IMG/VR virus record: IMGVR_UViG_3300037042_003892 | Location: 1 to 24,970 of that record | Length of the DNA stretch: 24,970 nt | Source: a virus | Strand: one strand, 5' to 3' | In this document: one piece after another, positions 1 through 8,088 of the stretch | Layout of the letters: every line of letters starts with the position of its first letter | Numbering within the stretch: position 1 is the stretch's first letter | Notes under the pieces: model-generated | Told to the model about the DNA's origin: nothing | Seen by the model: only the letters and a program-made list of their open reading frames with translations | Database searches by the model: none | Made by a program: the position numbers and the translations under genes

Positions 1-2
1 GC

Positions 3-173
3 TTCCTCGAAAGTGGATTCGTCTACGCTCCATACGTTCCACTCCAAGTTACACCAACCATCTTTGGTACAGAAGACTTCGTACCACGTAAGGGTGTCAT
101 GACCCGTTACGCCAAGAAGATGGTACGTCCAGACATGTACGGCTTAGTAGTGATCCAAGATATGGTAGGTTGA
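3..173 (+). CDS. gp23: Major capsid protein gp23, C-terminal end (partial)
   Basis: The window opens inside this gene; 56 residues and a TGA stop are visible. The fragment reads LESGFVYAPYVPLQVTPT, then FGTEDFVPRKGVMTRYAKK and MVRPDMYG. This is the conserved C-terminal signature of T4-type major capsid proteins (ESGFVYAPY, PRKG-MTRYGKKMVRPDFYG). In T4, gp23 forms the hexamers of the prohead and mature capsid shell. The 5' part lies outside the window, so length and cleavage site cannot be judged. A strong intrinsic terminator begins 18 bases after the stop, as expected for a highly expressed gene at the end of a transcription unit. Codons here are richer in C at the third position than in most neighbours, which suits high expression. 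The identification is secure. Confidence 0.93.
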   Translation, partial: FLESGFVYAPYVPLQVTPTIFGTEDFVPRKGVMTRYAKKMVRPDMYGLVVIQDMVG

Positions 174-191
174 TCTTAAACTAATCTACTT

Positions 192-219
192 AAAAAAGGC
201 CCTTTACGGGGCCTTTTTT
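192..219 (+). terminator. Intrinsic terminator after gp23
   Basis: GGCCC (198-202) pairs with GGGCC (209-213) around a 6-base loop. Six A upstream pair with the six T downstream, so the hairpin can extend to 11 bp and ends in a T tract. It lies just downstream of the capsid gene stop and separates it from the homing endonuclease gene. Confidence 0.9.
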
Positions 220-241
220 ATTTGTTAAAATATTTATTGAT

Positions 242-817
242 ATGCAAGCAATATATCAAATACAAAATATAATAAACAATAAAATATATATTGGAAGTAC
301 CAACAATATCCGCAAAAGATGGAACAACCATCGTAGTAAATTAAACAATAATATCCATGAAAATAAATATTTACAACAAGCTTGGAATAAATATGGACAA
401 AATAATTTTGAATTTTCTATCATAGAAGAAGTTCAAGATTTTAATAGAATAGAAAAAGAAATATTTTATTTAAATGAAAAAAAATCTTATGAAAGACATA
501 TTGGATATAATTTTGATAAAAATCCAACAGACAAAAGTGGTAAAAATAATCCATTTTATGGAAAACAACACTCACAAGAAGTCAAAGATAAAATTAAATT
601 ATTAGCAAACAATAGAAGCGAAGAATTAAAAAAGAAAATGGGCGAGAAAAATATCGGACAAAACAACAAGTCTGCCGTTTTAAATTGGGAAAATGTTAAA
701 GAAATAAGAAAGTTATATTCTGATGGCAACGAAACATATAGAAGCCTAGCATCTAAATTTAATGTTGCAAAAAGTACAATACAATCAATAATTGAATTTA
801 AATCTTGGAAAGAATAA
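242..817 (+). CDS. Free-standing GIY-YIG homing endonuclease with NUMOD3 and HTH motifs
   Basis: This 191-residue protein has the GIY-YIG nuclease fold at its N-terminus: AIYQI (3-7) and KIYIGST (14-20) are the two signature strands. R26 and H30 in RKRWNNHRSK are the expected catalytic region, and E73 in EKEIFYL is the likely metal-binding glutamate. Residues 102-140 carry NUMOD3-like elements (NPFYGKQHS, then a second G-KN element). Residues 148-190 resemble the helix-turn-helix of intron-type endonucleases (EIRKLYSDG, SLASKFNVAKSTI). Such enzymes nick or cut a homologous allele and spread by recombination. No intron is evident: the gene stands alone between two terminators, directly after gp23. 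It is more AT-rich than gp23 and has no clear Shine-Dalgarno, both typical of a mobile gene. Family assignment is strong; the target site is unknown. Confidence 0.9.
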   Translation: MQAIYQIQNIINNKIYIGSTNNIRKRWNNHRSKLNNNIHENKYLQQAWNKYGQNNFEFSIIEEVQDFNRIEKEIFYLNEKKSYERHIGYNFDKNPTDKSGKNNPFYGKQHSQEVKDKIKLLANNRSEELKKKMGEKNIGQNNKSAVLNWENVKEIRKLYSDGNETYRSLASKFNVAKSTIQSIIEFKSWKE

Positions 818-859
818 TCATATGGTCGGCTGATAGTAGCGAGTTGTTTGATAAAGAAG

Positions 860-888
860 CCCGCCAGAAATGGCGGGTTTTCTTTTTT
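860..888 (+). terminator. Intrinsic terminator, GAAA tetraloop
   Basis: CCCGCCA (860-866) and TGGCGGG (871-877) form a perfect 7-bp stem closed by a GAAA tetraloop, followed by TTTTCTTTTTT. It lies 42 bases past the endonuclease stop and before the first adhesin gene. It is nearly identical to the terminator at 2637-2669. Confidence 0.92.
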
Positions 889-900
889 GTAAACATTAAA

Positions 901-908
901 ACTATTTA
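901..908 (+). promoter_or_regulatory. Candidate phage late-promoter motif ACTATTTA
   Basis: ACTATTTA lies just after a terminator and 39 bases before the first adhesin start. Closely similar motifs stand in the gaps before three other structural genes (2674, 5904, 8985). T4-type late promoters consist of a single AT-rich -10-like element read by gp55, and this motif would suit that role. Function is inferred only from position and recurrence. Confidence 0.4.
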
Positions 909-947
909 TATCTGTTAATAAGTCACGATGTGACGGAGGACAAAAAA

Positions 948-2609
948 ATGTTTTTTTATACAGAAGCAGATAATGGTGGATCTCAAGCTCAAGGATATAC
1001 ATCAAATGTTATTTTCTTTAGCGACTCAACATTAAATTTTAATAATACATGCATTAACAATACAGATGAAGTTATTGTTAATATTAGCGCTACAGGAAAT
1101 GGTTCTGAAACAATTACACTGAGTGATAATTCAGATCAATTTATGTTTTCACCATCATCTTTCACACTTGCTGCTGGAAGCAGTCAAGCTGTAACTGTCA
1201 CATTTAATCCAACTAATTGGGGAGTAAAAACTGCTAATTTAATTGCTAGTTCTTCTGGCGGTAATTCTGCAACAGCTTCATTAACAGGTATTTGTGTAGC
1301 AGATCCTCTTATAATAACCTCAAGTGTTGGGTCACTCAACTTTAACAACACATATGTTTCGCAAACTTCTAGTGTGACATTTACTGTTTCAGCAGGTGGA
1401 ACAGTTCAAGATATAGTATTAATGTCAGACGATACAGATCAATTTGATTTCTCACCAGCTTCATTTAGTATGACTGGAGCCAATCAATCTCAGACTGTCA
1501 CAGTATATTTTACACCAACCTCTAATGGTTCAAAAGTTGGTATATTAACACTAAGTGCTTCAGGTGGTGACGTCGCTCACGTATCAATGAGTGGTTCTGC
1601 TATTTATCAACCACTTGTATTATCATCAAGTGTTAGCAGCCTACAGTTCAATGATACTTCAGTCAACACAGTAAGTTCTAAACAATTTAATATAACAGTT
1701 ACTGGTACTGGCTCAGAACAACTTACATTTAGCAGCAATTCCAGTAATTTTTATACAACTGCCGATCCATTTATAGCAATAGATGGTGGCCAAAATTATA
1801 GAATTACAGCTATGTTTGCTCCTACAACCGTTGGAACTAAAACTGGTCAATTAACAATAAGTTCTTCTGGTGGAGACACTGAAGTAATTAATGTACAGGG
1901 TAGTGCAATTGAACAGTATTATAACAATACTTCACTTCTATTAAGAGGAGATGGCTTGAATGGTAGTACTAATATAATTGATAGTAGTATGAATAATTCA
2001 ACTGTTAGCGTATTTGGAAATACTGCGATAAGTACTACACGAAGTAAATACGGTGGAAGTAGTATATATTTTGATGGTAACGGAGATTATTTAACAATAC
2101 CTAACAGCACAAATTATGATTTTGGTACCGGTAACTTTACAATTGAAATGTGGGTTAATCCATCCGCTACCGGTTTGGCAAATGGTGCTCAAAAATTCCT
2201 TTTCGGTAAAAGAGCGTCAGCTACTTCTTATGCCTCAGTTGTAGGTTTCTTGACATATAGCACTGTTACCTCTAATTTCAGTGTTTCTTTCTTCCGTTCA
2301 ACAACTGGTACTTCGTATTCTCTCCAATACACTTCGCCAGCAACTTTTGTTTCACCAAATGTTTGGACGCATTTAGCATTTGTTAGAAACGGAAATGAAT
2401 ATTCAGTATATGTTAATGGTATTAAATATATTGCTGCCGCTGCAGCTTCTGGTCTTGTATTCAACAATACCAGCGCATTCTCTGTTGGTTCAACATATTC
2501 GGCAGTTTCACCTGGCACATCAGGATTTGCCGGTTATATAGACGATTTCAGAGTTACAAAGGGTGTTGCAAGATATACCAGCAACTTTACTCCTCCAGGA
2601 GCACTGTAA
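948..2609 (+). CDS. Adhesin-like virion protein, 3 Ig-like repeats plus LamG lectin domain
   Basis: I start this 553-residue protein at ATG 948 because GGAGG (935-939) sits 8 bases upstream; an in-frame GTG at 930 would put the Shine-Dalgarno inside the gene. Three tandem repeats of about 100 residues follow the pattern LxxSSVxxLxFNxT ... SDxSDQFxFSPxSFxL ... FxPTxxGxKxGxLTLSxSGGD, typical of ASH/HYDIN-type (choice-of-anchor D) Ig-like domains. The last 220 or so residues form a concanavalin-like LamG domain (LLLRGDGLNGST, GTGNFTIEMWVNP, WTHLAFVRNGNEYSVYVNG, and a C-terminal DDFRVTKGVARY). Such proteins usually decorate the capsid or tail and bind cell-surface glycans. It lies between gp23 and the neck genes and is a paralogue of the next gene. 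Domain calls are good; host-binding is inferred. Confidence 0.8.
   Translation: MFFYTEADNGGSQAQGYTSNVIFFSDSTLNFNNTCINNTDEVIVNISATGNGSETITLSDNSDQFMFSPSSFTLAAGSSQAVTVTFNPTNWGVKTANLIASSSGGNSATASLTGICVADPLIITSSVGSLNFNNTYVSQTSSVTFTVSAGGTVQDIVLMSDDTDQFDFSPASFSMTGANQSQTVTVYFTPTSNGSKVGILTLSASGGDVAHVSMSGSAIYQPLVLSSSVSSLQFNDTSVNTVSSKQFNITVTGTGSEQLTFSSNSSNFYTTADPFIAIDGGQNYRITAMFAPTTVGTKTGQLTISSSGGDTEVINVQGSAIEQYYNNTSLLLRGDGLNGSTNIIDSSMNNSTVSVFGNTAISTTRSKYGGSSIYFDGNGDYLTIPNSTNYDFGTGNFTIEMWVNPSATGLANGAQKFLFGKRASATSYASVVGFLTYSTVTSNFSVSFFRSTTGTSYSLQYTSPATFVSPNVWTHLAFVRNGNEYSVYVNGIKYIAAAAASGLVFNNTSAFSVGSTYSAVSPGTSGFAGYIDDFRVTKGVARYTSNFTPPGAL
1010..1914 (+). repeat. Three tandem Ig-like coding repeats, period about 300 bases
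   Basis: Repeat units begin near 1010, 1305 and 1611. Each opens with the pattern leading to SSVxxLxF and closes with SxSGGD and a G-S-A-I linker. The units are similar in protein sequence but diverged in DNA, so they are old duplications rather than a fresh expansion. Confidence 0.75.
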
Positions 2610-2636
2610 TAAACAACAAACAATTTAATTTGTTAT

Positions 2637-2669
2637 CCCGCCTGAAATATGGCGGGTTTTCTTTTCTTT
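2637..2669 (+). terminator. Intrinsic terminator after first adhesin gene
   Basis: CCCGCC (2637-2642) pairs with GGCGGG (2651-2656) over an 8-base loop and is followed by TTTTCTTTTCTTT. Stem and tail closely match the terminator at 860-888, suggesting that the terminator was duplicated together with the downstream adhesin gene. Confidence 0.9.
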
Positions 2670-2673
2670 AAAA

Positions 2674-2681
2674 ACTACTTA
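2674..2681 (+). promoter_or_regulatory. Candidate late-promoter motif ACTACTTA
   Basis: This is a one-base variant of the ACTATTTA motif. It lies 4 bases past a terminator tail and 11 bases before the second adhesin start. The layout of terminator then motif then adhesin repeats that at 860-948. Confidence 0.35.
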
Positions 2682-2692
2682 CAACAAAGAAT

Positions 2693-5600
2693 ATGCTAGC
2701 TTTCTATAGAATAGATCCTGAAAATATTTTCAATTTAAGTTCAAGTGTTGAAAGTATTACATTTGATTCTACAATTATTAATAATATTAGTAATGAAGAA
2801 ATATTCTATATTTCCGCTACAGGCAATGCTACAGAGACTGTTTTTATTTCTTCAAGCAATGAATTGTTCGGCTATTCATCTTCTAGTTTTGAATTGGTCG
2901 GTGGTCAATCTCCAATACCTATAGAACTAGTATTCTCGCCTGATACTATTGGTCAAAAATCGGGTAGTTTATATTTAAGCAGTTCAAACGGAGACACATT
3001 AAATATTTCGTTAAATGGTCTTGCAATTCCAGAACCATTAATTTTAAAATCAAGTGTTGAAAATATATATTTTCCTTCATTATATATTGGAAGTAGCAGT
3101 CAGTCAACATTTACAGTTACAGCAGACGAAGACAATATAGAAACAGTAACTTTATCTGACGATAGCGATCAATTTTCATTTTCACCAGCTAGTTTTGTAT
3201 TAACTGGTGGTGTTACGATTCAAACAGTTACTGCTAGTTTTACTCCAACAAGTCTTGGTTCAAAGACAGGTAATTTAACTTTAACGTCTACAAGTGGCAG
3301 CACACTTATTATACAACTTGATGGGGCTGGTGTACATACTGCACTAGTATTAACTTCTAGTGTTTCAGTGTTGAGTTTTTCGGGAACTTACATAAATACA
3401 ACTAGCTCAAACACATTTACTGTTTCTGCTGCTGGTTCTGGACAAATAGAAAATATAACAGTTACAGATAATACAAATCAATTTAATTTTAGTCCGTCTA
3501 ACTTTTATTTAACTGGTGGTGGTAGTCCACAGATTGTTAGTGTTGATTTCGCTCCAACATCAATAGGTGTTAAATCTGGGCTAATAACATTCAGTTCTTC
3601 AGGCGGGGATTTACTTGACGTAGCTCTTTCGGGAAGCGGGATCATTCTTCCACTTTTCTTGACATCAAGTGTTGAAAGTTTAGTTTTTCCAGAAACATCA
3701 TTAAGAACAATCAAAAGAAAAACATTTAATGTCACTGCTGGTGGTACTGGTAGTGCTTTAGTTTATGTAAGAGAGAGTCTTGCAGATTTTCAACGCTCTC
3801 CTTCAAGCTTTAATTTAGTTGGTAGTGATATAAATCCAGATGTAGTTACAATTACTTTTTATCCTTATAGCTATGGTATAAAAACTGGTTTGGTAACGCT
3901 TACTTCAAGTCAAGGTCAAGTAAAATATATTCAAGTCACTGGTACTTGTACGCCACCACCAGCAATATTAAAATTAAATAAAACCAATATGATATTTCCA
4001 AATACTTTTGTTGGTAGTTCTAGTTCTCAAATATTTACAGTATCTGCTGCTGGAACAGTTAATGAAACAGTAGTAATAACTGATAATTCAAGTTATTTTA
4101 GTTTTAATCCATCTAATTTTTCATTATCAGGTAGTAGTCCATCTGTTGTCATTACTGGTTCATTTAATCCAGATTCTAAAAGCTTATTTACAGGATTGGT
4201 CACAGTAAGTGCTAGTCGCGGTAGTGTTAAAACACTAAGAGTAACCGGTTCTGGCATATATGCGCCACTAATTCTAACTTCAAGTGTAAATTCTATAGAT
4301 TTTGGAACTTTTTATGTTGGAACTTCTAATTTTGTTTCTTATAGTGTTTCTGCTGGTGGATTAGGTAGTGAAACTGTAACTGTTTCAGATAATTCTAGTC
4401 AGTTTAGCTTTAATACATTAACATTTCCATTAACTGGTGGGGGTTCTTCTTATCCAGTTACTGCATCATTTAATCCAACAAGAACTGGAACAAGTACTGG
4501 TATTATGACACTAAGTGCTAGTGGAGGAAATATTAAAAACATTTCTTTGACAGGCTCTGCTATATATGCTCCGCTTGCTCTAACTTCAAGTACAAATGTA
4601 TTAAATTTCCCCGATACAGTTGAAAGCGAAACTAATATATTAACTTTTACAATTTCTGCTGGAGGTCTTGGTGGAACTGAAACAGTCACGCTATCCGATG
4701 ATTCTGATCAATTTAGCTTCTCTACTTCTTCTTTTAATTTATCAGCTGGTGGTTCAATATTGATAACCGGCTCTTTCTCCCCTACTTCTATTGGTATAAA
4801 AACTGGCTTGCTTACACTTAGTGCAAGTGGTGGAGACATTGAACAAATACAACTTAGTGGAACAGCTACGGCTTATATGACACCACTTGCAATATCGTCC
4901 GTTACAAATCCAATAATATTTGGAAATACAAATATTTTGTCAATTTCTTCTTCTATTTTTGTTGTGACAGCTTCTGGTCCTTCTTCCAAGACTGAAACTG
5001 TTACGATAATAGAAAATTCACTAGATTATTCATTTTCTCCTTCTGTGTTTAATATTAGCGGCGGCGCACAGCAGTATGTTACTGCAACATATATGCCAAC
5101 TTCAAATGGTGCGAAATATATAACAGCATCCCTAAGCGCCTCTGGTGGCAGTACTTATACGATTCAAGTCAGTGGAACAACGACAGATCAATATTCTTCC
5201 AGCATTTCTTTCCTTTTGAGAGGCGATGGTGTTTCAGGTAGTACTACCATAGTTGATAGCTCAACAAGTCCAATAGTTCTTACAAGAAGAGGTGGCGAAT
5301 TCTTGAGTAGTGATCAAGCAAAATATGGTCCAACAAGTATATATTTCACTGGTTTTAATAGTAATTTGCGTCGCACTGAAGGTACTCCAACTTCTACTAA
5401 TTTTGCTTTTGGTACCGGTAGTTTTACACTAGAATGGTGGATGTATTATACAAACCCTGTTAATACTTCTGAACAGCCTTTTTTATTTTTAAGTACAGCA
5501 ACTGTGGCTAGTATCAACACGGCACAAATGAGAATATCTCTTGTAAGTCCTTCTGGCGTATTACGAACAATAGCAAGCAAAGTTAATGCGCCTGCTGAAA

Positions 5601-5893
5601 CAGTCACTATTGATTCTTCAATTACAAATGGAGCATTTTTTCGAAATGGCTGGCACCATGTCGCGGTTACAAGAGAATCTAGTATATTAAGAATATATGT
5701 TGATGGAATTCATCGTGTTTCAGGAACACTTAATGCGCATAACTATACAAATATACAAACTTTATATATTGGTAGTGTAACGACAAATTCAGGAGTAAAT
5801 TCTTATATGGGTTATCTTGATGATTATACCGTAACTAAAGGCGTTGCAAGATATATAGGAACCGGCAGCTTTACACCACCGGGTGCTTATTAA
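2693..5893 (+). CDS. Large adhesin-like virion protein, 8 Ig-like repeats plus LamG lectin domain
   Basis: This 1066-residue protein has the same design as the preceding gene but with eight tandem Ig-like (ASH/HYDIN-type) repeats. Repeat starts read SSVESITF, SSVENIYF, SSVSVLSF, SSVESLVF, NKTNMIFP, SSVNSIDF, SSTNVLNF and SVTNPIIF, near bases 2732, 3037, 3340, 3648, 3963, 4264, 4570 and 4882. A LamG-like domain fills the C-terminal 240 or so residues (FLLRGDGVSGST, GTGSFTLEWWMYY, WHHVAVTRESSILRIYVDG, DDYTVTKGVARY). The repeats probably form a stalk that presents the lectin tip. The start has only a weak ribosome-binding site (ACAAAGAAT). There is no terminator before the next gene, but an ACTATTTA motif follows at 5904. 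Role as a fibre or decoration protein is inferred from domains and position. Confidence 0.8.
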   Translation: MLAFYRIDPENIFNLSSSVESITFDSTIINNISNEEIFYISATGNATETVFISSSNELFGYSSSSFELVGGQSPIPIELVFSPDTIGQKSGSLYLSSSNGDTLNISLNGLAIPEPLILKSSVENIYFPSLYIGSSSQSTFTVTADEDNIETVTLSDDSDQFSFSPASFVLTGGVTIQTVTASFTPTSLGSKTGNLTLTSTSGSTLIIQLDGAGVHTALVLTSSVSVLSFSGTYINTTSSNTFTVSAAGSGQIENITVTDNTNQFNFSPSNFYLTGGGSPQIVSVDFAPTSIGVKSGLITFSSSGGDLLDVALSGSGIILPLFLTSSVESLVFPETSLRTIKRKTFNVTAGGTGSALVYVRESLADFQRSPSSFNLVGSDINPDVVTITFYPYSYGIKTGLVTLTSSQGQVKYIQVTGTCTPPPAILKLNKTNMIFPNTFVGSSSSQIFTVSAAGTVNETVVITDNSSYFSFNPSNFSLSGSSPSVVITGSFNPDSKSLFTGLVTVSASRGSVKTLRVTGSGIYAPLILTSSVNSIDFGTFYVGTSNFVSYSVSAGGLGSETVTVSDNSSQFSFNTLTFPLTGGGSSYPVTASFNPTRTGTSTGIMTLSASGGNIKNISLTGSAIYAPLALTSSTNVLNFPDTVESETNILTFTISAGGLGGTETVTLSDDSDQFSFSTSSFNLSAGGSILITGSFSPTSIGIKTGLLTLSASGGDIEQIQLSGTATAYMTPLAISSVTNPIIFGNTNILSISSSIFVVTASGPSSKTETVTIIENSLDYSFSPSVFNISGGAQQYVTATYMPTSNGAKYITASLSASGGSTYTIQVSGTTTDQYSSSISFLLRGDGVSGSTTIVDSSTSPIVLTRRGGEFLSSDQAKYGPTSIYFTGFNSNLRRTEGTPTSTNFAFGTGSFTLEWWMYYTNPVNTSEQPFLFLSTATVASINTAQMRISLVSPSGVLRTIASKVNAPAETVTIDSSITNGAFFRNGWHHVAVTRESSILRIYVDGIHRVSGTLNAHNYTNIQTLYIGSVTTNSGVNSYMGYLDDYTVTKGVARYIGTGSFTPPGAY
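2732..5184 (+). repeat. Eight tandem Ig-like coding repeats, period about 300-315 bases
   Basis: Eight units encode a strand pattern beginning xLxSSVxxxxF and ending TLSxSGGxxxxIxLxGxxIxxPL. Unit 5 (near 3963) is the most diverged at its start. Variation in unit number between this gene (8) and its neighbour (3) points to expansion or loss by recombination between repeats. Confidence 0.75.
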
Positions 5894-5903
5894 TATAAAT
5901 TAA

Positions 5904-5911
5904 ACTATTTA
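5904..5911 (+). promoter_or_regulatory. Candidate late-promoter motif ACTATTTA
   Basis: This exact ACTATTTA lies in the 42-base gap between the second adhesin gene and the gp13-like gene, 24 bases before the ATG and upstream of its GGAG ribosome-binding site. Confidence 0.4.
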
Positions 5912-5935
5912 CAATAGCCTTGGAGAAAATAATTA

Positions 5936-7252
5936 ATGTCTGTACCTGTTTTAACACCAAAACAACAAACTAGCGCTATTATACTGCCAGCAACAGGTAC
6001 ATTTTCAAGTGTTGCATCTAATTTACCTATCGGTGTTTATTCTACAAACACAGACTTTATAAGTGGCGCAGTAGATCAAGTTGCCTATACATATAAAATG
6101 ATAGGTGGAGATGTTCTTGATATAGAAATAACTGAAGGTCAAGTATATGCAGCATATGAAGATGCTGTACTAACTTATTCTTATTTCGTAAATCTTCATC
6201 AAGCAAAAAGTTCTGTTGGTATGCTTCTCGGTTCACCAACAGGTACATTCAATAGTGATGGTGAAATAAAGAGCGGAAGTGCTCTTTTTGATCTTATTAG
6301 TGGTTCTGGTCCATTAAATCTTGCATATCCAATGTATGACATTACAGCTGTTCGTGATGTTGCTGATGCATTTTCTCATGAAGCTGGCGTCGGCGGAAGA
6401 ATAGATATATATTCAGCATCATTTGAAGCTGGAGAAATGAAGCAAGATTATGATTTACAACAAATAGTAAACAATTTGGCAAGCGATGTTAGCTCTTCAC
6501 TTTACGGTAAAATAACATCAGGTGCAAGAATAACAGTTAGAAAAGTATTCTATAAATCAGCACGTGCAATGTGGAGATTTTATGGTTATTATGGCGGTTT
6601 AAATGCAGTAGGAAATCTTTCCACGTATGGCCAATATGCCGATGATAGTACTTTTGAAGTCATTCCAGCTTGGCATAACAAACTTCAAGCTATGGCATAT
6701 GAAGATAATATTTATACTCGCATCTCTCACTATTCATACGAAATTAAGAATAATCATTTAAGACTTTATCCAGCTCCCGATGCAACAGATATCAGAACAT
6801 TCTGGTTTGAATTTAGTGTTGGTTCTGGCGCTGGTGCTAATGTCGGTATTGGTCAACTATCAGGCTCTTCTTATACCGAAATAGCTGCAAAAGATCCACG
6901 AATTGGTGGTGTTAATAATATTAATACTCTTCCTTTCTCAAATATTCCATTCCAGAATATAAATGCGATTGGTAAGCATTGGATTCGTCGTTATGCACTA
7001 GCAGTTGCCAAAGGAATGCTAGCAGAAGTTCGTTCTAAATTCCAAACAATACCAATCCCAGGTGAGAGTGTTACGCTAAATGGAGCTGACTTAAGAGCGC
7101 AAAGTAAAGAAGAAAAAGATGCTCTTAAAGAAGAACTTGTAAAAATTCTTGAAGATACAGATTATGCAATACTTGCAGAAAAGAGAACAGCTATGTCTGA
7201 TAATACTAATAAGATATTGAGTGCTGTTCCGAATGTTATATTTGTTGGTTAA
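5936..7252 (+). CDS. Neck or head-completion structural protein (gp13-like candidate)
   Basis: This 438-residue protein starts at ATG 5936 with GGAG at 5922-5925. It is immediately followed by gp14- and gp15-like genes, the position gp13 occupies in T4 (13-14-15). I see no textbook motif. The central part is aromatic-rich (RAMWRFYGYYGGLNA, VIPAWHNKLQAMAYEDNIY). The C-terminal part reads KHWIRRYALAVAKGMLAEVR, then IPIPGESVTLNGADL and a charged helix, a pattern I associate with head-tail connector or neck proteins of T4-type phages. It is longer than T4 gp13 (309 residues). A structural role is very likely from context and the absence of catalytic motifs; naming it gp13 is tentative. Confidence 0.6.
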   Translation: MSVPVLTPKQQTSAIILPATGTFSSVASNLPIGVYSTNTDFISGAVDQVAYTYKMIGGDVLDIEITEGQVYAAYEDAVLTYSYFVNLHQAKSSVGMLLGSPTGTFNSDGEIKSGSALFDLISGSGPLNLAYPMYDITAVRDVADAFSHEAGVGGRIDIYSASFEAGEMKQDYDLQQIVNNLASDVSSSLYGKITSGARITVRKVFYKSARAMWRFYGYYGGLNAVGNLSTYGQYADDSTFEVIPAWHNKLQAMAYEDNIYTRISHYSYEIKNNHLRLYPAPDATDIRTFWFEFSVGSGAGANVGIGQLSGSSYTEIAAKDPRIGGVNNINTLPFSNIPFQNINAIGKHWIRRYALAVAKGMLAEVRSKFQTIPIPGESVTLNGADLRAQSKEEKDALKEELVKILEDTDYAILAEKRTAMSDNTNKILSAVPNVIFVG

Positions 7253-7269
7253 ATTTGGTGGTGATTTAA

Positions 7270-8088
7270 ATGTCTAGAAAAAAGAAAATAGATCAAAATA
7301 AATGGTCGCAACCAGAACAACCTCCTCCACCAATGTTTTTGGGAAAGAAGGAACGAGATTTAACCAAACAAGTCAATGATGAATTGATTGAACGAGTTAT
7401 TGGTCAAACTATTGTTTATTTTCCATTAAATATAAAAAATAGTAATTTTCACCCTCTTTATGGCGAAGCAATAAGCAAATCTTTTCTTCGTCCTATTTTA
7501 ATAAAAGCACTAATCAAAACAGACGAACATGAAACTTCAACTGAAGTTTATGGTCTTGATAAAAGCTCAAAAATAACTATTAATTTTCATAAAAGAAGAT
7601 TAACTGAAGATCAAGATCTATTCGTTCGTGAAGGTGATATTGTTTTTTATGGATTAAATTTTTATGAAATCGTAAAATTAGCAGAACCAAGACCATTATT
7701 CGGTCAAGTTGATCATAAATTTGAAATTCAAACAACATGTATTCGCGTGAGAGAAGGTTTCTTTAACGAACCTATTGAGCTATTACAAATAAGAGAAAAT
7801 ATTCGTCTAGCAGGAACACAAGAGCAATCTGTAGCCGAACAAATAATAGCTTCAACTCCTATAGAAGTTGCATGTGGTGGCAAAATTCAATTAGTTTCTG
7901 CTAAAAGAACTAGTTCACAACGCTCTCAGTTTTTAGATTATGTAAATAATGGTCAAAAATATAAAGGATGCATTATTTACATAACAGAAATTGATGAAGA
8001 TGAAATCTATGGAGTGTTTGACGTTGCTGAAAAATTCTTTTTCAACGAAGGTGGAAATTGGATTGAAAGTAATTTGTATGCTTTTTAA
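7270..8088 (+). CDS. gp14: Neck protein gp14
   Basis: This 272-residue protein (T4 gp14 is 256) has the conserved N-terminal block LGKKERDLTKQVNDELIERV, then GQTIVYFPL and YGEAISKSFLRP, and a central VREGDIVFYGLNFYEIVKL, typical of gp14-type neck proteins in marine and distant T4-like phages. A GGTGGTGAT ribosome-binding site overlaps the end of the preceding gene region, so the two are likely cotranslated. In T4, gp13 and gp14 form the collar that closes the filled head and receives the tail. The residues after about 190 are less conserved to my eye. The gp13-like, gp14, gp15, gp18, gp19 order supports the call. Confidence 0.72.
   Translation: MSRKKKIDQNKWSQPEQPPPPMFLGKKERDLTKQVNDELIERVIGQTIVYFPLNIKNSNFHPLYGEAISKSFLRPILIKALIKTDEHETSTEVYGLDKSSKITINFHKRRLTEDQDLFVREGDIVFYGLNFYEIVKLAEPRPLFGQVDHKFEIQTTCIRVREGFFNEPIELLQIRENIRLAGTQEQSVAEQIIASTPIEVACGGKIQLVSAKRTSSQRSQFLDYVNNGQKYKGCIIYITEIDEDEIYGVFDVAEKFFFNEGGNWIESNLYAF

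Follow-up and report, generated by a model that had tools for sequence, protein, structure and literature searches.

What has set two large, adhesin-like genes between gp23, the major capsid protein gene, and the neck gene of a T4-like phage, at a place where in many relatives just ~100 bp separates the two? The DNA analysed is a fragment, 24,970 bases long, from IMG/VR (record IMGVR_UViG_3300037042_003892, positions 1 to 24,970; hereafter the window). Its source is a distant T4-like phage, with the gene order gp23 end, interval, neck, sheath (PHROG tail sheath match, 5.9e-67), more tail-type genes and a DNA polymerase A-type gene. The interval contains a GIY-YIG endonuclease gene (242-817) and the two genes in question, A1 (948-2609) and A2 (2693-5893); these genes, and the window's signals located below, lie on the plus strand. 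Its left border is the 3' end of gp23 (3-173; a 56-residue match, 79-100% identical in relatives), and its right border is a neck or head-completion protein gene (5936-7252; PHROG 211 head-tail adaptor, 3.9e-11), whose homolog in Flavobacterium phage immuto is annotated as a putative head completion protein, with an annotated gp23 upstream. The answer that we consider likely is that this interval serves, in the present phage and those closest to it, as a docking site where late-type cassettes are exchanged by recombination at common joints.

A scan with the neck protein retrieved 224 relatives, of which the best 80, together with the window, gave 81 loci (designated by L numbers). Both borders are present in 70 of the 81, and the other 11 have no gp23 match; loci with a neck identity of 82-100% are called the close group. 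A scan of genome contigs with the same protein found no relative. The interval is an insertion hotspot: it is empty (76-105 bp) in 41 of the 70 loci and filled (243-5819 bp) in 29. The empty intervals confirm the claim of an earlier note on this DNA that an insertion parts gp23 from the neck genes, and the hotspot part of its idea of a host-range hotspot also stands. Empty intervals make up four of the 23 close loci versus 37 of the 47 remoter ones; with identical intervals removed, three of 21 close and 22 of 30 remoter intervals are empty. Genes that begin with MFFY, as A1 does, occur in 17 of the 19 filled close intervals, and also stand upstream of the neck gene in records G001 and G004 (neck 58-59% identical) and in the cut locus L035. 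The scope of MFFY cassettes as occupants of the site is the close group, the window included. Among cultured phages the nearest, Microcystis phage Mel-JY01 and Flavobacterium phage immuto, have neck proteins 29-30% identical to that of the window, and a DNA search of the interval in named phages gave ten records, nine through the endonuclease gene and one through a short piece of A1.

A1 encodes 553 residues and starts at ATG 948 (MFFYTEA...) rather than at GTG 930, a triplet that is part of a leader hairpin; A2 encodes 1066 residues and starts with MLAFYR. As the earlier note had read them, the first has three immunoglobulin-like (Ig) repeats and the second eight, each with a C-terminal LamG domain (Pfam and a hidden Markov model of the repeat). 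The repeats of both are of the HYDIN/ASH/Cep192 kind (Pfam), and Laminin_G_3 scores 67.8 bits in A1 and 49.1 bits in A2, with a Pfam cut-off of 27.6. The AlphaFold model of A1 (mean pLDDT 78, pTM 0.46; below 50 at residues 4-16, just after the start) is consistent with this Ig kind: the solved structures that it matches best are those of ciliary central-apparatus proteins, and the CEP192 SPD-2 domain follows lower down; by sequence, the sole match of A1 among solved structures is a HYDIN chain (2.3e-05). In named phages the A1 protein matches 326 records, chiefly of cyanophages, and the best 15 of these cover its LamG-bearing part at no more than 42% identity.

The usual plan of a cassette in the close group is an AACTATTTAYA box, 15-30 nt, a Shine-Dalgarno sequence, a start of the form ATGTTTTTTTAT..GAA, the body, and a CCCRCC..GGYGGG stem-loop with a run of T. 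One and the same joint has different bodies behind it, namely Ig plus LamG, LamG, triple LamG, FG-GAP_2, Gly_rich_2 or no family; the bodies that were family-scanned gave LamG, triple LamG, FG-GAP repeats (FG-GAP_2) and Gly_rich_2, with two outside any family, and one body has a single Ig repeat and a sub-threshold kelch match. L013 and L015 have five cassettes in a row. When viral contigs were scanned for the box together with ATGTTTTTTTAY, 41 stretches matched, a part of them by chance, with frames under 25 residues; over all loci gathered, the box, ATGTTTTTTTAY and a frame of at least 25 residues define 26 distinct cassettes. A second pattern, a Shine-Dalgarno sequence plus any MFFYxE start, gave 113 stretches, many of them unrelated to this phage group.

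In the window, the earlier note had seen two near-identical terminators, each followed by a ACTATTTA-type motif. Both terminators exist, at 856-881 (tail to about 890), the left joint of A1, and at 2637-2656 (tail to about 2667), the A1/A2 joint; they have in common a six-pair stem, CCCGCC/GGCGGG, and the run GGCGGGTTTTCTTTT, and they differ in their loops (AGAAAT versus TGAAATAT). Terminator-like sites in positions 1-7300 number nine, against 3.4 +/- 2.0 in shuffles. The first terminator (856-890) is probably gp23's native one, displaced by the endonuclease gene, because the endonuclease-free L010, L023 and L026 have such a terminator right behind gp23. The second (CCCGCCTGAAATATGGCGGGTTTTCTTTT, 2637-2667) is of the cassette type and ends a block, made of the end of A1 and the terminator, that is 85% identical between the window and L036 and 95.8% between L009 and L036. 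The motif that follows has the form ACTA(T/C)TTA at both places, the second being ACTACTTA (2674-2681), one mismatch from ACTATTTA. In full, the boxes are AAACTATTTATA (899-910), found at the same position in cassette leaders (a set selected by the box itself), and AAACTACTTACA (2672-2683), 9 nt ahead of the A2 ATG.

A third box, ACTATTTACA at 5904 (in full AAACTATTTACA, 5902-5913), precedes the neck gene, and the box is also found before sheath, tube and scaffold-type genes. As evidence by itself the count of ACTATTTA was rejected, with three exact copies in the window versus 2.76 expected by chance; the meaning of the box therefore comes from its position. In the 187.7-kb record G001, eight of 11 boxes lie 17-37 nt before a start codon and ten of 11 are on one strand. 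Such a position points to a late promoter, and it is position that carries this putative role, because the late motifs of S-PM2 and T4 (NATAAATA/TATAAATA, as reported in PMC2984593) match just the reverse complement of the box. The box may fire forward, or a late sigma factor may read the mirrored motif; both are conceivable. For boxes of the form TATTTATA (window 901-910), the reverse complement, TATAAATAGTT, contains TATAAATA, the late promoter of T4, which here does not lie on the strand that carries the genes. Sigma70-like sites in positions 1-7300 are at background (26 versus 30.9).

Because the box stands before structural genes as well, a rival explanation has to be considered, namely that the genes were acquired independently at a tolerant site and are alike in terminator and box merely through common late-gene signals; the quite different genes that remote and cultured relatives have at the site are in keeping with it. 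The leader hairpin argues otherwise. In A1 this hairpin, GTCAC-GAT-GTGAC (922-934), abuts the Shine-Dalgarno sequence GGAGG (935-939). A stem of at least five pairs ending no more than 2 nt from the Shine-Dalgarno sequence is present in 19 of 34 distinct leaders, a set outside which the A2-type genes of the window, L009 and L018 stand, versus 2.1 expected from dinucleotide shuffles (standard deviation 1.4), and the 19 comprise 14 different stem sequences. With no preselection for hairpins, 61% of symmetric positions pair around a centre 7 nt before the Shine-Dalgarno sequence, versus 29-47% at eight other centres (30 leaders). Other box-bearing genes have such a stem in just six of 55 cases, where 2.7 are expected. 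In view of this excess, the variable stems and the weak signal in other box genes, the hairpin is, judged from the sequences, a cassette feature whose structure is kept while its sequence changes. We suggest that it may shield the 5' end of the mRNA or keep the ribosome site open.

Exchange between phages also argues against independent acquisition. Five pairs of loci, chosen by eye, have borders in or at the joint. The flanks of L007 and L008, which end at the ATG and resume at the stop codon, are 99.6% identical, and the bodies of the two have no DNA similarity save a short stretch at the MFFY start. L018 and L022 agree at 94.8% as far as the terminator that closes cassette 1, and at 95.9% once the terminator ahead of the neck gene is reached; the gene enclosed is not the same in the two. 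For L023/L026 and L216/L217, alignment stops after the 18 bases that code MFFYSE. In the more divergent L036, the last 46 residues of A1 and the terminator (95.8% identical to L009 DNA) abut a neck gene whose protein is 55% identical. The window itself has a mixed history, its A1 leader being 96% identical to L023 and 68% to L009, and its A1 body 71% to L023 and 83% to L009. Leaders are alike within a genome (85% identity in 16 pairs, ten of them from L013, versus 66% in 545 pairs between genomes; 0 of 5000 permutations gave so large a difference). Whole genes thus appear to have been swapped between phages at common borders, and, with the hairpin linked to cassettes and a gene-for-gene swap in near-identical phages, we regard independent acquisition as unlikely.

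A second cassette site lies after an M15-type peptidase-like gene (140 aa) and before a muramidase-like gene, both named by their look alone. Of nine loci with its left border, seven are occupied by MFFY cassettes that differ from one another; the other two are L244, empty at 97 bp, and L201, with unrelated genes. Eight of the nine were retrieved through MFFY patterns, which biases the filled share upward, and the right border of L228 lies beyond its stretch. One contig carries both L011, which is site one and empty, and L228, which is site two and filled. In the LamG tree, L217 of site two falls together with the A1-type LamG of site one (support 88/88, below star level), which suggests movement of cassettes between the two sites.

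The MFFYxE start is more uniform than a recombination track would need. Codon 6 encodes Glu in all 26 cassettes (25 GAA, one GAG), and codon 5 varies over eight codons and six residues and codon 7 over seven residues; the search pattern forced codons 1-4, not codons 5-7. A mere recombination track would hardly hold codon 6 while codon 5 drifts, and the start is therefore probably kept for the sake of the protein. Exceptions are L035, with Gln at codon 6, and G001, with MFFYRQ and MFFYRS starts that have no box; other starts in array genes are MLAFYR (A2), MFFNKN (L029) and MNIVST (L007). The two G001 genes form a third kind of MFFY locus, a tandem of 244 and 108 residues with a common TGGRGTATATAAT-type leader (L204 15272-16331, on its reverse complement). 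Two-gene cassettes were seen in L219, L031 and L220, with a short MFFY peptide (26-82 aa) of the GW- or SW-type ending, and then a gene starting M-G/A-Y/Q-S-D-W. None of the papers in the library searched mentions MFFYSE or MFFYRE.

We infer that the exchange would proceed as follows. Cassettes resemble each other in terminator, box and first codons, and this likeness would provide a joint with roughly 90-130 bp of sequence in common. When two phages of the group co-infect one cell, their common joints would line up, and crossover in two joints, presumably by the phage's own recombination machinery, would replace, add or remove a whole gene together with its own signals. Since most units are closed by a terminator, capsid and neck expression would be unharmed by this turnover. 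After late transcription, the predicted products would be located on the virion, perhaps held by their MFFYxE end, and may bind host or environmental glycans. It is possible, although we put it forward as a tentative idea, that this amounts to plug-and-play virion display, in which MFFYxE is a docking tag that mounts unrelated adhesin bodies at the same virion position, and the joint, which would encode terminator, late promoter, ribosome-site hairpin and tag, doubles as a crossover track for the trading of adhesins between phages at two or more genome sites.

Several observations weigh against the docking-site reading. A2 fits the cassette plan loosely: it begins MLAFYR, its box is spaced 9 nt from the ATG with neither a Shine-Dalgarno sequence nor a hairpin between, and a terminator was not found between it and the neck gene (5894-5935). 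A1 is thus the typical cassette and A2 the untypical one, two separate genes side by side. In a strict test of 25 cassettes a terminator was present downstream in 18 and upstream in 17, and 15 of the 34 leaders have no stem of at least five pairs at the Shine-Dalgarno sequence. The box differs from T4 TATAAATA, which is found on the opposite strand instead, and its 11 copies in G001 compare with about eight expected by shuffling. Two filled close intervals, L024 (with an endonuclease remnant) and L025, are without an MFFY start, as are all ten filled remote intervals (neck 52-57% identical). Seven of these ten have one kind of gene (MGSKFSV..RMRKEL, 134-149 aa as read; L044, L065, read with a longer start, L071, L072, L074, L081 and L082) and three have others. 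The intervals of the cultured Mel-JY01 and immuto (L309 4791-6971 and L310 3783-6477) likewise have other genes, with PhoH in both and no MFFY start; the immuto insert includes, by eye, a 546-aa repeat protein. A2-type genes of the window (2672-2695), L009 and L018 have ~9 nt from box to ATG and no Shine-Dalgarno sequence, and would have a nearly leaderless mRNA if the box is a promoter. In L009 a degenerate terminator between A2 and the neck gene seems, by eye, to remain.

The endonuclease gene at the left edge of the interval raises another explanation, in which the GIY-YIG enzyme (PF01541, 1.4e-13; with NUMOD3, PF07460, 6e-07) cuts relatives at the end of gp23 and repair copies the neighbouring cassettes along with the homing endonuclease gene. 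Such a gene is present there in six of the 23 close loci with both borders (the window, L009, L018, L022, L027 and L032), and it is cut in L006; L012 has a different large gene, with no Pfam match, in its place, and L024 a deleted remnant, which retains just the first and last codons. However, 11 of the 23 have inserts with no match to the endonuclease (L007, L008, L013, L015, L020, L021, L023, L025, L026, L029 and L031), L024 has the remnant only, and swap borders coincide with the joints; this holds for the second site too, and no such gene is seen in the intervals inspected there. We therefore find it improbable that endonuclease-driven conversion accounts for the cassettes. A terminator-like stem-loop directly behind gp23 (191-220) probably arrived together with the endonuclease gene: stems of the GGCCC- or GCCCC-type stand behind gp23 in L009, L012, L018, L022 and L024, where the endonuclease, another large gene or a remnant sits, and relatives with none of these have different stems. 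Bases 822-838 (ATGGTCGGCTGATAGTA), behind the window endonuclease, resemble the gp23 end of the endonuclease-free L023.

The earlier note had proposed that one self-contained terminator-promoter-adhesin cassette was copied locally in tandem and that its number of Ig repeats then changed. The two units do have the same terminator stem, a similar box and the same order of Ig and LamG, and A1 and A2 match at 41% over 509 residues; in L013 and L015, where five cassettes have partly related LamG bodies, tandem gain has probably occurred. A1 is indeed self-contained. A2, however, has no terminator of its own, the leaders of the two units are unlike, and the first terminator is probably that of gp23. 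The LamG domains of A1 and A2 are 34% identical and are not sisters, whereas that of A1 is 48-53% identical to those of seven other loci (L012, L013, L018, L021, L026, L217 and L299). Each gene has its own orthologs: both in L009, A1 alone in L023, and A2 with a different first gene in L018/L027; A2 is found also in L016, where it is cut. Repeat numbers are constant, with eight in A2 of the window, L009 and L018 and three in A1 of the window, L009 and L023, as in the A1-like L217.

In a tree of the Ig repeats, which has few columns and several long branches and is partly unresolved, no fork unites any A1 repeat with any A2 repeat. Repeats 1-7 of A2 join the same-numbered repeats of L009 and L018, and repeat 8 joins that of L009 only; repeats 1 and 3 of A1 join only those of L009, with those of L023 not placed beside them, and repeat 2 also joins L023, L217, L228 and L299. 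Two unrelated genes with independent terminators (LamG and FG-GAP), named beforehand as the refuting observation, are seen in L021 and L022/L032. The LamG and Ig trees contradict tandem duplication with a change of repeat number for the window, and we consider it very improbable as an account of the locus. What varies in A2 among relatives is its C-terminal end: L018 and L016 have an Ig8 and a LamG unlike those found in the window and in L009, and a second LamG-like match is present in L018. The end that changes is probably the receptor-facing one.

Integron-like site-specific recombination, with stem-loops as folded recombination sites, would suit an array of promiscuous cassettes in which many joints have a hairpin conserved in structure and variable in sequence, but it is most improbable, since the crossover base is not fixed as in integron gene cassettes (ATG, codon 6, stop codon or terminator, by pair), cassettes bring their own promoter-like box, and no integrase was found among the eight window proteins that were family-scanned, the window being a fragment and its other open reading frames being inspected by reading only. 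Behind the neck gene, L214 (13310-13495) and L215 (18693-18953) have a second partial copy of a gp14-like gene directly after the first.

The docking-site reading invites comparison with known systems. The elements called PeSLs are said to be mobile regulatory cassettes of T4-type phages, as Arbiol et al. in 2010 and Comeau et al. in 2014 reportedly described. Their name denotes an early promoter, and they lie in regions of small nonessential early genes. Like them, the joint described here has a promoter-like box and a stem-loop terminator at gene borders (of 25 cassettes, 18 have a terminator downstream and 17 have one upstream; the box is in all by selection), and exchange borders fall inside the element in the five pairs L007/L008, L018/L022, L009/L036, L023/L026 and L216/L217, two of which reach six codons into the gene. 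Unlike PeSLs, it has no early sigma70-type promoter, its box preceding late structural genes; in many cases a coding tag and a hairpin next to the ribosome site come with it, and its cargo is adhesin-like. PeSL shuffling cassettes, as described in PMC4503421, are the nearest known system, and the joint is best read as their late counterpart rather than as one of them. New relative to PeSLs are the covarying leader hairpin and the common N-terminal tag; none of the papers in the library searched combines PeSLs, late promoters and the virion.

Other likenesses are more distant. The morons of lambdoid phages are genes inserted, each with a promoter and a terminator of its own, where relatives have two genes side by side; they are mostly single and expressed from the prophage. 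Moron elements are described in PMC6469090 as horizontally acquired and independently transcribed. The cassettes resemble them as extra genes with a promoter-like box and a terminator between neighbours (A2 being without the latter), and differ in their late-type signals, their arrays of up to five, their common N-terminus and their occurrence in T4-like phages. A hyperplastic region between g15 and g18 of marine cyanomyoviruses was reportedly described by Millard et al. in 2009. It holds 4-14 genes, metabolic ones included, according to PMC2984593. It too is a variable insertion region in the structural module, but here the site is gp23-neck, and its occupants are cassettes of adhesin type that have their joint in common. 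Ig-like decoration proteins of phages, T4 Hoc among them, have their Ig repeats encoded among late genes, as A1 and A2 do; those of A1 and A2 are of a different type (HYDIN/ASH/Cep192) and are followed by a C-terminal LamG. With Laminin_G_3 above the Pfam cut-off in both, A1 and A2 are akin to LamG/concanavalin-like lectins and may bind a glycan.

If the docking-site reading is true, this phage group would alter its binding proteins gene by gene, with the essential head and neck genes undisturbed, and the idea of shuffling cassettes, so far one of small early genes, would come to include late adhesins that are probably virion-borne. The N-terminal tag that the cassettes have in common would then be a candidate mounting signal, and the sequence of the joint would be an easy pattern with which to look for more binding proteins in metagenomes.

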